In this document: positions 31,405 through 60,700 of the stretch, piece after piece
How the letters are laid out: the number at the start of each line of letters is the position of its first letter
Position numbering within the stretch: the stretch's first letter is position 1
Assembly (NCBI RefSeq): GCF_000147715.2
Contig: NC_017934.1
Location: 62,001 to 126,000 of the forward strand
Length of the DNA: 64,000 nt
From: Mesotoga prima MesG1.Ag.4.2
GTDB taxonomy: Bacteria > Thermotogota > Thermotogae > Petrotogales > Kosmotogaceae
Direction: 5' to 3'
Program-made: the position numbers and the translations under genes
The notes under the pieces: model-generated
Databases searched by the model: none
The model's input: only the letters and a program-made list of their open reading frames with translations
What the model was told of the DNA's origin: nothing

Positions 31405-32454
31405 ATGAAAGGGATAATTACCGTTCTATTCATACTGTGCGCAGTTATTCTGGCTTCAGAGCCTTTCAGCATAGGATTCATCTATGTTGGTTCGGTCAAT
31501 GACGGGGGCTGGACAGAGAAACACGACGAGGGCAGGCTGTATCTCGAGAAGACTTTTGGAAGTCAAATCGAGACTTCTTTCATAGAAAACGTGACTGAAG
31601 GAGAACAGGATCTGGAGGTTCTTAGAAGTTACGCCGAACGTAACGTCAAACTCCTTTTCAGTACAAGCTTCGGCTTCATGGACGACGTTCTGGAGATAGC
31701 AAAGGACTATCCCGATACGATCTTCATGCATTGTTCGGGATATGAGACTGCCGAAAATGTCGGGACCTACTTCGGAAGGATATATGAGCCGGCGTATCTG
31801 ACCGGTCTCATAGCCGGTAAGATGACAAAGAGCAACATAATCGGCTATGTTGCAACATTCAAGATTCCGGAAGTTATCAGGGGGATAAATGCTTTTGCGA
31901 ATGGAATCGGAAAGGTCAACCCCGATGCTCGCGTGCACGTTATCTGGACCGAGACCTGGTTCGATCCCTCTTCCGAAGAGGAAGCGGCCGACGCCCTCCT
32001 GGATCTTGGAGCCGATGTAATCGCTCAGAGCCAGGATTCGCCAGCTGCAGTTCAGGCGGCCGGACAACGGGGTGTTTACGCTATTGGTTACAACACCGAT
32101 ATGAGTGCCTTCAGTCCAGACACTTTTCTGACTTCTCCCATATGGAACTGGGGAGTCTTTTACGAGAGAGTCGTAAAAGAAGTAATGGAGGGAAAGTGGA
32201 CCAGCTATCAATACTGGGGCGGAATAGAGGACGGTGTAGTCGACATAGTTATGAGTAATCTAGTTCCCGCCGATCTTCAGGAACTTATGAATAAAGAAAG
32301 AAGCCGGATAATTGAGGACGATTATCATCCCTTTGAAGGGCCTTTGCAAGATCAAGACGGAAAACTAAGATATTCAGAGGGCGAAGAACCAACCGACGAA
32401 GAGCTGTTGACCATGGACTGGTTTGTGAGCAACGTCATCGGCAGCCCGAAGTGA
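31405..32454 (+). CDS. BMP-family ABC transporter substrate-binding protein
   Basis: A 349-residue protein with a signal peptide (1-18) and the BMP/PnrA signature: I-G-F-I-Y-V-G-S-V-N-D-G-G-W-T at the mature start, L-L-F-S-T-S-F-G-F-M-D, Y-L-T-G-L-I-A-G-K-M-T and G-Y-V-A-T-F-K-I-P-E-V-I-R-G-I-N-A-F. This family binds purine nucleosides or related ligands for ABC import. No permease or ATPase gene is adjacent, so it is an orphan binding protein here. ATG preceded by GGAGGTGACTT; downstream DNA is a repeat block. Confidence 0.9.
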   Translation: MKGIITVLFILCAVILASEPFSIGFIYVGSVNDGGWTEKHDEGRLYLEKTFGSQIETSFIENVTEGEQDLEVLRSYAERNVKLLFSTSFGFMDDVLEIAKDYPDTIFMHCSGYETAENVGTYFGRIYEPAYLTGLIAGKMTKSNIIGYVATFKIPEVIRGINAFANGIGKVNPDARVHVIWTETWFDPSSEEEAADALLDLGADVIAQSQDSPAAVQAAGQRGVYAIGYNTDMSAFSPDTFLTSPIWNWGVFYERVVKEVMEGKWTSYQYWGGIEDGVVDIVMSNLVPADLQELMNKERSRIIEDDYHPFEGPLQDQDGKLRYSEGEEPTDEELLTMDWFVSNVIGSPK

Positions 32455-32509
32455 CTCTTATCTGTTTAGTCTAATGGAGCAGACCAGTCAAAAGGCGAGA
32501 ATCATCGCC

Positions 32510-32590
32510 GCCAGTAAAGGCTTCGCCTTCGCCAGTACCACTTCGTGGTGCCAGTCTCGCCTTCGGCGAGGCCAGTTCCGCTGCGCGGGC
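32510..32590 (+). repeat. GCCAGT hairpin-linker array, 4 units
   Basis: GCCAGT occurs at 32510, 32531, 32550 and 32571, so the period is 19-21 bases. Each is followed by a different hairpin: AAGGC-TTC-GCCTT, ACCAC-TTC-GTGGT, CTCGCC-TTC-GGCGAG and CCGC-TGC-GCGG. Confidence 0.9.
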
Positions 32591-32630: not shown

Positions 32631-33100
32631 CTCTTAATGCTCTTGATCTTAAATCCCCGCTTGAGCGGGGGGGACCGCTTGCGGTGGGGAGTGTGGTCTT
32701 TGAACAGCTTTTGGAATAGATTGGCCTGTTCGAAATTGAACGACAAATTCACTCTTCAAGTTGTTTGGTCTGTGATCCATAGGTATTCTCATAGAAGCAA
32801 CAAGGAATGAACATCGAACAACCCTCTCAGGGGACTATGTCAGGGCAGTAACTTTTCCAAACGTTGGAGATTCACACCCTCCGCCACTACGTGGCCCTCC
32901 TCCCTCAAGGGAGGATTAAAATCCTTATTCAGAAGCTCAAACAGTTTCTAGAGGATCATCCCTTGATCCGGGGCATGGACTGTTTTTTCACTGCGTGAAG
33001 CATCTTCAAACAAACAGCAGTCGTTTCGCCTGACATAGTGGGAGCTGGCGTGCGAAAGCAGACTGGTTTCTGAATTCCTCCCGCGGAAGCGGCATCACTT
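32631..33100 (+). repeat. 470-bp dispersed repeat, copy A
   Basis: Nearly identical to 33329-33797 and, inverted, to much of 60112-60700. It contains an inverted type 1 two-hairpin element at its left end (32645-32695), a type 2 element in the middle (32875-32924), and a CTGCTTTCGCA-like hairpin flanked by inverted GCCAGT-type words near the right end. Confidence 0.92.
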
Positions 33101-37267: not shown

Positions 37268-38017
37268 TCATATATCCTTTAGGGCGGGGAATCTCTCCCG
37301 CCAGTCTCTTAGAATACTCATTTTCTCATAGTCCAGTTCCCAGAGAAGCAATCCCTTCTCTGCTTCAAAGGGTACTTCGTTGCCATCTTGATCGAAGAGT
37401 ACTGAAAAGGCCTCGTCGTATTCTATGCCGTTACCGTCGACCCCAGTCCTGTTTAGACCCAGAACAAATGACTGGTTCTCGATCGCCCTCGCTTTGAGAA
37501 GAGCCTGCCAGTGATTGGCTCGCTTTTCCGGCCAGTTGGCAATCACTATCATGACCTCTGCAGGCAAGTTGGCCCTGAAGAGCTCCGGAAAACGAAGATC
37601 GTAACAGATGTTCAGAGAGAAGTGTATGTTTTTCATCTCGAAAGAGAGATTAGTGTCACCGGGGCTGTAAACGATATTCTCCCCTCCGTACGAAAATAAC
37701 TTTCTCTTCCGGTAGATCAAAGGCTCCGAACCCGGGGCGAGAAAAGCCGCGCAGTTGTAGAACTTCGAGTTTCTTCTGTCTATAAAGCCGTAAACTGCCG
37801 GAATACCCCAGTGATCTACCTGCTTTCTGAAGAAACCACACGCATCTTTCACGTAAGCTCTTTCGGCGTTATTAGTGAACCCGCTCAAGGTAGTTTCGGG
37901 AAAAACAATTAGCTCAACACCTGCCTCCGAGGCCCCGGCGAAAACTCTTTCGATTATCTTCATGTTGATCTCTGGAGACTCCCATACTATGTTGAGAGGA
38001 ACGCCGCCTATTCTCAT
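37268..38017 (-). CDS. Carbon-nitrogen hydrolase (nitrilase superfamily, omega-amidase-like)
   Basis: 249 residues with the nitrilase triad: Glu41 in V-F-P-E-T-T-L-S-G-F, Lys in Y-R-K-R-K-L-F near 105, and Cys in L-N-I-C-Y-D-L-R-F-P-E-L near 137. The pattern is closest to omega-amidase/YafV-like enzymes that hydrolyse alpha-ketoglutaramate or similar amides. Its ATG overlaps the stop of the pyroglutamyl peptidase gene, so the pair may release and process glutamine- or pyroglutamate-derived compounds. Confidence 0.88.
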   Translation of the reverse strand: MRIGGVPLNIVWESPEINMKIIERVFAGASEAGVELIVFPETTLSGFTNNAERAYVKDACGFFRKQVDHWGIPAVYGFIDRRNSKFYNCAAFLAPGSEPLIYRKRKLFSYGGENIVYSPGDTNLSFEMKNIHFSLNICYDLRFPELFRANLPAEVMIVIANWPEKRANHWQALLKARAIENQSFVLGLNRTGVDGNGIEYDEAFSVLFDQDGNEVPFEAEKGLLLWELDYEKMSILRDWRERFPALKDI

Positions 38018-53903: not shown

Positions 53904-54428
53904 CTATTTCACATTGAGGAAAATATCCTGTTTCTCCTGGCCAAATGTGACGCTTATCAACCTGAATTCCCCTTTGGAAGAGATGTGCGAATAGTCGCCT
54001 TTCTCAACCTTTACCTCCTGATACTGGAAATAAGGGAGATCCTGAACGAAAGAGAAAACGCTACCTTTCGAGTCGGTCACGGCATAGAGGAACCTCAGCG
54101 CGTCGATTATCTCTGATTTGATCACAGCAACCGTCACATATCCCCCCTTGACTTCGCTCTGAGGAAAGTCTTTCGAGAAGATCTGTCTACCCTCTCCGTC
54201 GTAGGCCGCCACGGTCAACAGGGGTTTTCCAGAAACGTCAAGCTTGATCTTGGTGAAACTTATCTCGCTTTCTTCCAGTCCGCAAAGGGCGAGAATCTCC
54301 TCTCTGGAAAGTGTGAGTTTTTCCTCTGCTGGATTGGGTTTCTCGCCACAGGAGGACACGGCAAGAATTGTCAGCAAGGCTAAATTAACAAGAACCACTA
54401 TCAGACTCTTTCGGCTGTCAAATTTCAT
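53904..54428 (-). CDS. Hypothetical lipoprotein, 174 residues
   Basis: Signal peptide ending A-V-S-S-C (Cys about 27) marks it as a lipoprotein. The mature part has L-T-L-S-R-E-E-I-L-A-L-C-G-L-E-E and a beta-rich body with F-Y-S/F-V-Q-D-L-P-Y-F-Q-Y-Q-E-V type strands; I do not recognise the family. ATG preceded by GGAGGTAGT and overlapping the stop of the phosphodiesterase gene by four bases. Confidence 0.72.
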   Translation of the reverse strand: MKFDSRKSLIVVLVNLALLTILAVSSCGEKPNPAEEKLTLSREEILALCGLEESEISFTKIKLDVSGKPLLTVAAYDGEGRQIFSKDFPQSEVKGGYVTVAVIKSEIIDALRFLYAVTDSKGSVFSFVQDLPYFQYQEVKVEKGDYSHISSKGEFRLISVTFGQEKQDIFLNVK

Positions 54429-55135
54429 ACTACCTCCATCATCACATCAGAGCGGTCAGTAATCAAGAAATCGCACACATCTCTGACCTTGAGAAATAGG
54501 TCCGAATCGTTTAACGTCCACAAAGCAACTCTCGTTCCTTCTTCGCGGATCTTTCGAAGCAATGAAAGCCCCTTCTCCAGGCCTATGTTTTCGAAGAGAT
54601 CCTTGTTGAGATTAACCGAATAAGGCCTGTATCTCTCGATCACTTTGTACAGGAACTCTTCACCACCCGGTCGAAGAAGCTCCTTATCTATTATAGGGGC
54701 TACCATAGGGCAGCATAACTCCTCTTTGAACTCATGAAGACAATCATGATGGAAGGAAGAAAACATAGTCCTTTCGAGGGCGTCGAATCTCTTGACAATC
54801 TTAATCACTTCAGGTACAGCCTCTACGGCTTTGATCTCAACATCGACAAATATATCTTCGGGCAGTTCCCGGTAAATCTCTTCAAGAGTGGTCAGGGCGT
54901 CAAATCCAACAAGCCCCATCTCTTCGAGTTCGGCGAACGTCTTTTCCGAGATCTTTACATCCAGTCCCATGGTCCTTTTAAGATCGGGATCGTGATTCAG
55001 GATGACCACGCCATCCTTTGTAAGCCTGACATCGAGCTCTACTCCATGTGCGCCGTACGATAGCCCCTCTTTGAAAGATCTAAGTGTGTTCTCGTATCTG
55101 CCCTTCCCCATACCCCTGTGGGCTAAAACAAACAT
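54425..55135 (-). CDS. Glycerophosphodiester phosphodiesterase
   Basis: A 236-residue GDPD-family TIM barrel: L-A-H-R-G at the start (catalytic His), E-N-T, G-V-E-L-D-V-R-L-T-K-D-G (metal Glu and Asp) and L-N-H-D-P (second His). It splits glycerophosphodiesters to glycerol-3-phosphate and an alcohol. No signal peptide. First gene of the leftward lipid/envelope group; ATG with GGAGG upstream. Confidence 0.92.
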   Translation of the reverse strand: MFVLAHRGMGKGRYENTLRSFKEGLSYGAHGVELDVRLTKDGVVILNHDPDLKRTMGLDVKISEKTFAELEEMGLVGFDALTTLEEIYRELPEDIFVDVEIKAVEAVPEVIKIVKRFDALERTMFSSFHHDCLHEFKEELCCPMVAPIIDKELLRPGGEEFLYKVIERYRPYSVNLNKDLFENIGLEKGLSLLRKIREEGTRVALWTLNDSDLFLKVRDVCDFLITDRSDVMMEVV

Positions 55136-55226
55136 ACAAATCGCCTCCGCAACCCGGCAAAATACTTCGCTGAGATCATTCTACTGTGTTATGGAAACTC
55201 AGTCAAGGCAATGTGAGGGAAGAACA

Positions 55227-55433
55227 GCCAGTCTGCTTTCGCAGACCAGTCAAAAGGCGAGAATCATCACCGCCAGTGAAGGCTCCGCCTTCGTTAGTAC
55301 CACTTCGTGGCGCCAGTCTCAGCTTCAAGCTGAGGCCAGTCACTGCAAGCAGTGGCAAGAACAACCAAGAAACGCAAGTGATGCAGAACATCAGGACCGT
55401 CGCACTGCGTGCAGCCAGTTCCGCTGCGCGGGC
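55227..55433 (+). repeat. GCCAGT hairpin-linker array, extended
   Basis: Linkers GCCAGT at 55227, 55272, 55312, 55335 and 55414, with variants ACCAGT (55245) and GTTAGT (55293). Hairpins in order: CTGC-TTTC-GCAG, GAAGGC-TCC-GCCTTC, CCAC-TTC-GTGG, CTCAGC-TTCAA-GCTGAG, CACTGC-AA-GCAGTG, GCAC-TGC-GTGC, CCGC-TGC-GCGG. The order parallels the array at 32510-32590, with one stem exchanged for another that still pairs. Confidence 0.9.
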
Positions 55434-55864
55434 GAGAACAGCTGCAAGTTGTCTGTTCCTAGTTGCAAGCATAAGAACCGATGCGCGCTTAAAAGCGGAG
55501 AACCCGCTGAGCGTTGTGAAGAGCCGTCCTTCGTCCCAAACCATGGACCCGTCCTTCGGGAAGACTGGTTCTTCGCTCCGACGCTGCGCGTCCAGGTTGT
55601 TCGTTCTTGGAACAGATCCCGGATCAAGTCCGGGATGACAGCGTATGGTTACTCCGAAAACGCCCAATTCCGTCATTCCGACAAAGCTCCTGGTCGGAAT
55701 CTCGATGCTCTTGCTTCATTGCTCTAACCAAGAACGAAGAACTGATCTGCGCTCTGGAACTAAGAACATTTTTCTTCTGAGAACCATTCAGCGGTGATGC
55801 GGTTTCACTCTGGTCTTTCAAACGTGCAACCCGCTAACCGCGGCCACGGTTTTCAAAAACCCAG

Positions 55865-55982
55865 ATCCCGGATCAAGTCCGGGATGACGGACTTAGGTTA
55901 TTCGGAAAACATCACATCACATGACAGCGTCCTGTAACTCTTAAAAACACAACAACCCGTCATTCTGAACTTGATTCAGAAT
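55865..55982. repeat. Pair of REP-like GTCAT hairpins with different stems
   Basis: ATCCCGGA-TCAAG-TCCGGGAT (55865-55885) and, in opposite orientation, ATTCTGAA-CTTGA-TTCAGAAT (55962-55982), both next to GTCAT. Confidence 0.85.
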
Positions 55983-56040: not shown

Positions 56041-56305
56041 AAAACCATCCTTAGTCTTTCATGAAGAGCAGTAGCAAGTTGAAAGTGCTGGAGTGAAGAA
56101 ACATCAAATGCCGTCATTCCGACAAAGCTCCTGGTCGGAATTTCGATGCTACTGCTTCACGATTTTGACCATGAACAAAGAACAGATCCTCGCTCTGGAA
56201 GAACGGGATTTATTCGGTGAACGGAGAACCGCTCAACGGTCAACCAGTTTCTTTTCTCTTACCAACCCGCACCCACCTACCCCGAACCTCGTCATTTATT
56301 CTTCC
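56041..56305 (+). repeat. About 265-bp dispersed repeat, copy 1
   Basis: Matches 60690-60962 over most of its length, including the ATTCCGAC/GTCGGAAT hairpin (56116-56141) and the final words ACCCCGAACCTCG. A partial third copy lies at about 36642-36760. Confidence 0.8.
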
Positions 56306-56354
56306 GCGTCTGGCTTGCCAGATTTAACCTTCCGGAAATCGGATATAAATACAC

Positions 56355-56384
56355 TTGGTGATAATATAGCTATATACATATATA
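56355..56384 (+). promoter_or_regulatory. Probable promoter of the GGDEF-like gene
   Basis: TTGGTG (56355-56360), an 18-base spacer and TATATA (56379-56384), in a very A/T-rich stretch just after the repeat block. Confidence 0.5.
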
Positions 56385-56407
56385 AGTATACACATAGGAG
56401 GATATTT

Positions 56408-57004
56408 ATGACTTTTGACCAGTGGAAAGAAGAACTCGAAAAACTCTCAAACGAAGGCCCCTTTGCTATTGCAGATATAGATATCGACAAGTTTTCGCTT
56501 TTGAACAAGGAATATGGAAGAGACTGCGGGGACAGGGTCTTCGAGATTCTAGATAAGACGCTGAAGGAGAATCTCCCAGAGAAGCTCTCGTTTGTCAGGT
56601 TTGGAGACGAGTTTTTTGTCTACAGCAGCGAGTACACCCTTGAGACTCTGTTTATGGAGATGCAGGATTTGGCTCAAACTATTTCGAAGCTCTCATTTGA
56701 ATGCAAGGGAAAGACGGTTAGGTTTACCGTCAGCGGTGCAGTGGGAGAGTTTCCAAGGAACGCGTCGACGGTCGAGAAACTGCTGAACCTCCTTTCGGAG
56801 GGAGTGAGAAAGGCAAAGGTCACAGGGAGAGCACAGATAATCTTTGCACCGCTTGAAAAGGAATCGAAGATGGTTATGAAATCCAACTACTACTTGAGAT
56901 CGCAGCTCGACGGACTAGCAAAACTAACTGCCCTTTTGAACAGAACCGAGTCATCACTCTTACGGGAAGCGCTGGATGATCTACTGAGAAAATACAAATT
57001 GTAG
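56408..57004 (+). CDS. GGDEF-domain protein with a degenerate signature
   Basis: 198 residues: an N-terminal half like diguanylate cyclases, with A-D-I-D-I-D-K-F-S-L-L-N-K-E-Y-G-R-D-C-G-D. The active-site loop reads R-F-G-D-E-F-F instead of R-Y-G-G-D-E-F, so one Gly is missing and cyclase activity is uncertain; a receptor or inactive role is possible. The C-terminus (S-Q-L-D-G-L-A-K-L onward) is an extra helical tail. ATG 56408 follows AGGAGG; the frame also runs upstream through repeats, which is not coding. A terminator follows. Confidence 0.8.
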   Translation: MTFDQWKEELEKLSNEGPFAIADIDIDKFSLLNKEYGRDCGDRVFEILDKTLKENLPEKLSFVRFGDEFFVYSSEYTLETLFMEMQDLAQTISKLSFECKGKTVRFTVSGAVGEFPRNASTVEKLLNLLSEGVRKAKVTGRAQIIFAPLEKESKMVMKSNYYLRSQLDGLAKLTALLNRTESSLLREALDDLLRKYKL

Positions 57005-60119: not shown

Positions 60120-60700
60120 TCGCTTCCGCGGGAGTCATTCAGAAGCCAGTCTGCTTTCACAGGCCAGCTCCCACTATGTCGGGCGAAACGACTGCTGTTT
60201 GTTTGAAAGAAAATGCTTCACGCAGTGAAAAACAGTCCATGCCCCGGATCAAGGGACGATCCTTTAGAAACTGTTTGACCTTCTGAATAAGGATTTTTAT
60301 CCTCCCTTGAGGGAGCTCATCATTAACCATGAGTTAGGTAGTTAAATTTCATTAATGCGCTGGTTCTCGCGCGAATGCTGTGTTTGGCGCCCGATGATCC
60401 TGATCTTAAGTCCTCCCTTGAGGGAGGAGGGCCACGTAGTGGAGGAAGGTGTGAGTCTCCAACGTTTCGAAGAGTTGCTGCCCTGACATAGTCCCCTGAG
60501 AGGGTTGTTCGATGTTCATTCCAGGTTGCTTCTATTAGTATGCCTATGGATCACAGACCAAACAACGTGAAGAGTGAATTTGTCGTTCAATTTCGAACAG
60601 GCCAACCTATTCTAAACGTTGTTCAAGGAGCACACTCCCCACCGCAAGCGGTCCCCCCCGCTCAAGCGGGGATTTAAGATCAAGAGCATTAAAAGCCGTC
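60112..60700 (-). repeat. 470-bp dispersed repeat, copy C (inverted, with insertion)
   Basis: Minus-strand match to copies A and B. It includes an extra stretch of about 100 bases (roughly 60317-60415), so the type 2 two-hairpin element appears partly twice (around 60298 and at 60402-60451). The type 1 element is at 60631-60681. Confidence 0.88.

Follow-up and report, generated by a model that had tools for sequence, protein, structure and literature searches.

GCCAGT-linked hairpin arrays of Mesotoga prima as candidate mosaic DNA repeats that turn over by whole hairpin-linker units

The GCCAGT-linked hairpin arrays of Mesotoga prima are best explained, with a probability of roughly 0.5, as dispersed, noncoding, REP-like intergenic mosaic repeats in which hairpin-linker units turn over as DNA, probably in single-stranded form. 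Constraint within these arrays falls on the linker and on the loops, which belong to two classes (TNC/TNNC and RRANCA), and a stem may have any sequence that is self-complementary. The window analyzed here, to which positions refer, is a stretch of 64,000 nucleotides (bases 62001 to 126000 of contig 1) from the 2.98-Mb genome labelled G000. The array at 55227 to 55433 (+ strand) comprises seven hairpins and one spacer of about 46 bp and is intergenic, lying between a GDPD gene (54425 to 55135, −) and a GGDEF gene (56093 to 57004, +). It reads GCCAGT-CTGCTTTCGCAG-ACCAGT-CAAAAGGCGAGAATCATCACC-GCCAGT-GAAGGCTCCGCCTTC-GTTAGT-ACCACTTCGTGGC-GCCAGT-CTCAGCTTCAAGCTGAG-GCCAGT-CACTGCAAGCAGTG-(46-bp spacer)-CGCACTGCGTGCA-GCCAGT-TCCGCTGCGCGGG, with GCCAGT at 55227, 55272, 55312, 55335, and 55414. 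Two open reading frames that cross it (55002 to 55727, +; 55203 to 55676, −) had no Pfam match and were taken as spurious.

On the + strand, the first linker (55227 to 55232) is followed by module A (CTGC-TTTC-GCAG, 55233 to 55244), which has a TNNC loop, by the variant linker ACCAGT (55245 to 55250), and by a hairpin of the purine-rich hexaloop class, CAAAAGGCGA-GAATCA-TCACC (55251 to 55271), in which one pair is broken. Then come module H (GAAGGC-TCC-GCCTTC, 55278 to 55292), the variant linker GTTAGT (55293 to 55298), module J (ACCAC-TTC-GTGGC, 55299 to 55311), with its outer pair broken, and module L (CTCAGC-TTCAA-GCTGAG, 55318 to 55334). The array is completed by the hairpin CACTGC-AA-GCAGTG (55341 to 55354), which usually comes after module L, by module E (CGCAC-TGC-GTGCA, 55401 to 55413), again with a broken outer pair, and by the terminal module TCCGC-TGC-GCGGG (55420 to 55432).

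A companion array (32483 to 32589, +) lies just 3' of a Bmp-family gene (31405 to 32454, +) and reads ACCAGT-CAAAAGGCGAGAATCATCGCC-GCCAGT-AAAGGCTTCGCCTTC-GCCAGT-ACCACTTCGTGGT-GCCAGT-CTCGCCTTCGGCGAG-GCCAGT-TCCGCTGCGCGGG, with GCCAGT at 32510, 32531, 32550, and 32571. Its module order is CAAAAGGCGAGAATCATCGCC, H, J, D, and the terminal TCCGCTGCGCGGG, module D (CTCGCC-TTC-GGCGAG, 32556 to 32570, +) being the third stem. The upstream hairpin CAAAAGGCGA-GAATCA-TCGCC is common to the two arrays, and the companion therefore starts at 32483 rather than at its first GCCAGT. The original prediction had described both arrays, and its description was borne out: both are real, with linkers confirmed at the positions read in each, the AAGGC/GCCTT and CCAC/GTGG modules occur in the same order, the final CCGC..GCGG hairpin is common to both, and the third stem is CTCAGC/GCTGAG at 55227 and CTCGCC/GGCGAG at 32510. 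The extra hairpin claimed for the 55227 array was also found, since CACTGC..GCAGTG, together with the spacer of about 46 bp, follows the third module there and is missing from the 32510 array. The window holds a small third array (60145 to 60180, +), GCCAGT-CTGCTTTCACAG-GCCAGC followed by a TCCCAC..GTCGGG hairpin; a GCCAGT pair at 37507 was set aside as a chance occurrence and not a hairpin unit. A further family of hairpins, whose linkers include GGAAGTGATG, GGAAGTGAGG, and GACGCAATG and whose loops are TNC or purine-rich RRATCA, was observed at window positions 32690 to 33100 and at loci L046, L049, L050, and L057, often directly upstream of GCCAGT arrays. The double hairpin CCCTCCGCCACTACGTGGCCCTCCTCCCTCAAGGGAGGA at 32880 to 32915 is a separate repeat with a TNC (TAC) loop.

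The proposal that both arms of the third stem had changed in compensation did not hold, as CTCAGC-TTCAA-GCTGAG and CTCGCC-TTC-GGCGAG are two separate modules, each recurring at other loci and in other species, and no stepwise intermediates between them were present among 95 distinct units. The 32510 array shares 86 to 91% of its left flank with arrays of the 55227 type but only 20 to 24% of its right flank. The apparent swap of the third stem is therefore the linker junction of two established modules, and the difference, as read from the alignment, is a sequence switch at a GCCAGT linker and not a pair change within a homologous array. When each of the 95 distinct units was assigned to its nearest module, 45 one-sided arm changes (31 pair breaking and 14 wobble) and 2 genuine two-sided changes were counted. 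Covariation in place, which the original prediction had expected of homologous arrays, was contradicted by the 11 arrays of order A-B-D, where two-sided change was seen at 0 of the 15 pairs of helices 1 to 3. The terminal helix gave two two-sided pairs, but this alignment mixes two terminal modules of unequal stem length.

Complementarity of the arms between modules and in the sister genus was nevertheless far above chance (arm-shuffle P < 0.0002). This would be expected of the structured RNA element suggested originally, a noncoding RNA or an element of untranslated regions that selection maintains for its RNA fold, and fast gain and loss of units is compatible with an RNA role. We consider this explanation quite improbable, given the lack of two-sided change within same-order arrays, the absence of Rfam matches at the gathering score in the whole window, presence and absence that differ among related species, and loops that fit hyperstable DNA loops rather than GNRA or UNCG RNA loops. 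The orientation of arrays relative to the flanking genes was also random (same/same, 11; opposite/same, 10; opposite/opposite, 10; same/opposite, 9). Structure matters, but the arms of a stem are replaced as one unit.

The family is large. In G000 the pattern GCCAGT-N8-34-GCCAGT occurred in 80 copies versus 11 for a reversed control, and 49 of the 89 distinct interlinker units were perfect palindromes versus 1.0 in shuffles, with no hairpin filter applied. A stricter pattern was found in 8 of 10 Mesotoga species, at 1 to 77 copies each, and was absent (control level) from Mesotoga G001 and G004; its reversed control gave 0 in all 103 Thermotogota genomes searched. Parsing of the fetched loci yielded 109 arrays with 243 units, in which stems of 4 to 7 bp form about 15 recurring modules joined by GCCAGT, including CTGC, CAGGC, CACC, CTCGCC, CGCAC, CTTTGC, CTCTGCC, GAAGGC, CGCC, ACCAC, ATCGC, CTCAGC, ACGAC, and CACGC. 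The units ran head to tail on one strand in every parsed array, and a TCCG-type terminal hairpin (TCCG...CGGG) stood directly after 58 of the 109. Two other kinds of repeat were excluded: coding repeats, because the unit lengths of 17 to 23 bp are not multiples of 3, and a CRISPR array, which has repeats of 23 to 55 bp and unique spacers of similar length, because the repeat here is 6 bp and the palindromic units of 11 to 21 bp are reused at many loci.

In the sister genus (G032 and G033), GCCAGT and both loop classes were kept and the stems were largely different, as in CCGAG-AAGACCA-CTCGG, CGCCC-AGGATCA-GGGCG, ACACCG-TTC-CGGTGT, and CTAGC-TTC-GCTAG. One contig of G032 (C104, locus L323) carried Mesotoga-type arrays (A-B-D and A-C), while the other arrays of that genome use different stems; the contig may reflect horizontal transfer or contamination. 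In a scan of 84,980 species genomes, the non-Thermotogota genomes among the matches listed looked like chance singletons, and Thermotogales and Kosmotogaceae MAGs were also present among those listed. Viral contigs gave no match to one strict array pattern. Within G000, the array loci L055/L059 and L056/L060 (C1:1763925-1795135 and 1850457-1881666) are identical in sequence and always lie about 86.53 kb apart, suggesting that a large segment was duplicated recently.

Binding of a nucleoid protein to the linker or to cruciforms, with selection keeping arrays of distinct hairpins for chromosome organization as in BIMEs bound by gyrase or IHF, would accommodate the fixed 6-bp linker, the fixed spacing, the intergenic location, and the indifference to gene orientation. 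It appears improbable in view of the control-level counts in G001 and G004 and the free decay of single arrays. Across the stretches sampled, local GC skew gave no clear sign that arrays favor one replication strand.

How arrays change could be read from loci that differ by single units. The paralogues L053 and L054 have identical left flanks and an identical terminal hairpin at the right; a single 19-bp unit (CGCACTTCGTGCG and its linker) is all that separates them. The two copies of L046, with near-identical flanks, carry CACC versus CAGGC at position two; in G003, ACCAC is replaced by CGCC between L071 and L266; and in G005, L284 and L280 read A-C-B versus A-D-C-B, CTCGCC having been gained or lost. 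These differences show that arrays acquire, drop, and exchange complete units at their linkers, in support of the earlier view of a modular, evolving, structured element. Between species, G000 and G005 gave A-C-D versus A-C-B-D in less similar flanks. One genome per species was compared, and none of the unit exchanges caught is between close strains.

A true orthologue of the 55227 array in G007, beside a neighboring protein of 76% identity, had the same module order and showed no compensatory changes. Its stems read TCGCC and GTGGT where the window copy has the one-sided, pair-breaking changes TCACC and GTGGC, and the loops differed as TTTC/TTC and TCC/TTC. The variant linkers ACCAGT and GTTAGT noted in the original prediction are present but are mutations, i.e., decayed GCCAGT: G007 has GCCAGT at both positions.

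Presence and absence also varied between orthologous sites. Upstream of the GDPD gene, a full array was found in G000 and G007, one module in G006, and none in G005 and G009. An array was present 3' of the Bmp gene in G000 and G007 (protein 98% identical) and not in G009 (97%), G005 (92%), or G002 (79%), where the sequence runs on as GAGCA(G/T)-TCCGACTA. The left edge of the Bmp-locus array is sharp and the right edge is uncertain, the downstream sequences being unrelated. Orthologous intergenic regions mostly differ as a whole, so that clean insertion boundaries are rare, and no clean empty site was found in the G009/G000 orthologous region, where the entire intergenic region differs.

The loops followed a stricter rule than the stems. 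Among C-G-closed triloops in 250 kb around the G000 arrays, TNC occurred 105 times versus 9 expected from Markov sequence, the next class reaching 24; a count of triloops on stems of at least 6 bp with no closing-base rule was too coarse. The TNC excess spans several linker families and corresponds to GNA on the opposite strand. In perfect modules, 127 of 142 triloops were TNC on the + strand and GNA on the other. Within modules the middle position accepts any base and the two outer positions hardly vary, as in the CAGGC module (TCC, 13; TTC, 5; TGC, 4; TAC, 3; TTT, 3; CCC, 1), where all four middle bases occur. The tetraloops of the CTGC module are TNNC, i.e., GNNA on the opposite strand, and 26 of 37 (GTTA, GTCA, GCCA, and GACA) break the GNRA rule of RNA; for GTTA, GTCA, and GCCA, DNA fits better than RNA. 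The second, purine-rich class, RRANCA, was found in GGCGA-GAATCA-TCGCC and neighboring hairpins. Exceptions to the TNC rule are module L, with its TTCAA loop, and some copies of module G. The loop sequence of the modules thus matches the DNA mini-hairpin motif C-GNA-G or C-GNNA-G, and d(cGNNAg) counts among the stable tetraloop motifs of DNA. C-GNA-G loops are described as forming extraordinarily stable DNA mini-hairpins by Yoshizawa et al. 1997, as cited in PMC6479982. The stability of GNA loops was taken from the literature, as the DNA parameters of ViennaRNA score all triloops alike and give no GNA bonus. The d(GCGNAGC) mini-hairpins share the C-G-closed GNA loop with the minus strand of nearly all modules but what is known of them comes from oligonucleotide chemistry and single sites rather than from a family of arrays spread across a genome.

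A second rule concerned module order. No module was repeated within any of 78 multiunit arrays, whereas 11 arrays were expected from position-respecting label shuffles and 20 from free shuffles (P < 0.0002); with distinct module orders only, the count was 0 of 39 versus 6.6 to 9.4 expected.

We propose that the relevant form would be single-stranded DNA, exposed for example at the replication fork, in which the strand with C-GNA-G and C-GNNA-G loops would fold into unusually stable mini-hairpins. Where linkers or modules are identical, the polymerase could then slip or switch template from one to another, and whole units would be deleted, inserted, or exchanged. Template switching is reported to write and repair stems with both arms in one event (PMC8794818). 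If new stems arose here in this way, their perfect pairing would not require compensation step by step. The same process may remove identical neighbors and so produce the no-repeat rule, which could alternatively reflect selection against mispairing of identical stems or the mode of unit acquisition. Were the arrays purely a mutational by-product, with quasi-palindrome template switching making and perfecting palindromes under no constraint on loop or linker, the creation and mending of stems by that process (PMC8794818) and the frequent one-sided decays in units would both be expected. This account would not explain why one linker is conserved across two genera, why loops show the TNC restriction (105 versus 9), or why the same modules turn up at dozens of loci, and we regard it as very improbable.

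A transposase was the other candidate mover. A RAYT/TnpA-REP-type HUH (Y1) enzyme might recognize the hairpins and the GCCAGT tag as single-stranded DNA and move them, as known TnpA-REP enzymes require a short tag and hairpin features (PMC8266576). RAYT-like Y1 transposase genes of about 300 amino acids (range, about 250 to 340) were found in the array-carrying genomes G003 (L311), G005 (L303), G006 (L306 and L307), and G007 (L309 and L310). Several adjoin GGGACAGAC..GTCAGTCCC inverted repeats, and 11 of the 109 arrays start inside one half of a repeat of this type. An array lies directly 3' of one Y1 gene in G005 and of one in G007, but no array was found within 450 bp downstream of the other copies (both in G006 and one each in G005, G007, and G003). 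No Y1 match was obtained in G000 or G002, two array-rich genomes of about 99% completeness (control genomes gave matches to Y1_Tnp), whereas G001 has the same type of gene (L312) and no arrays. The tag, moreover, is neither GTAG nor CGTC. Transposase-borne spread is thus unlikely as a general account; a past or occasional role of the enzyme is possible and would leave G000 and G002 unexplained.

Comparison with known repeats brings out what is distinctive. Like the GTAG- and CGTC-tagged REP and BIME elements (PMC3733652, PMC2817692), the arrays consist of short palindromes that lie between genes, carry a short unpaired tag, cluster into mosaics, and are present in many copies per genome. Where REPs have a GTAG or CGTC tag, unpaired and terminal, these arrays carry GCCAGT, or its decayed forms, between all units; their stems are 4 to 7 bp, compared with 8 to 9 bp in CGTC REPs; and their units run head to tail, an order rare in REP dimers and unlike the alternating palindromes with a few accessory motifs of BIMEs. 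They also draw on an alphabet of many stems with fixed loops and linker and no repeated module, and G000 has no RAYT/Y1 gene flanked by repeats such as a REPtron comprises. The Neisseria dRS3/RS mosaic arrays (NIME) are likewise intergenic, with short inverted repeats alternating with other units, but there the palindrome is constant and the spacer variable, whereas in Mesotoga variable palindromes are joined by a constant linker. CGTC-tagged REPs (CGTC-3) have been recorded for M. prima in a classification that files dRS3 as CGTC-1 (PMC3733652), and a palindrome survey includes M. prima among its genomes (PMC12306157). The CAGATCCCGGATCAAGTCCGGGATGAC repeats at window positions 55613 to 55640 and 55862 to 55888, and at many other loci, are probably those CGTC-tagged REPs. 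Repetitive hairpin elements of sponge and algal mitochondria (PMC2800124, PMC4524435) are intergenic, invade and expand, and diverge structurally between lineages; they are organellar, and the abstracts mention no common linker joining a hairpin alphabet.

No description of GCCAGT arrays was found in the open-licence literature, and they are apparently a previously undescribed kind of repeat. More tentatively, they may be a genome-wide repeat system with its own grammar: the linker and both loop classes would be fixed, the loops being recognized as structure in single-stranded DNA, and the stems, always self-complementary and never repeated within an array, would be free to change. A structure-guided DNA process would rearrange such a system; that this makes the arrays a categorically new bacterial mosaic element, and not a REP variant, is a possibility we hold with considerable doubt.

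In array paralogues that share flanks and differ by exactly one hairpin-linker unit, nature has recorded several times over how a bacterial chromosome acquires palindromes, exchanges them, and keeps them perfect. The arrays imitate ordinary RNA coevolution but are not a case of it, and they warn that a joint change of both arms between repeats is no evidence for compensatory evolution. Should the loop rule come from the folding of DNA single strands, there would be a genome-wide selection or bias on DNA hairpin stability, and the spread of REP-like repeats without a resident transposase would become directly testable.
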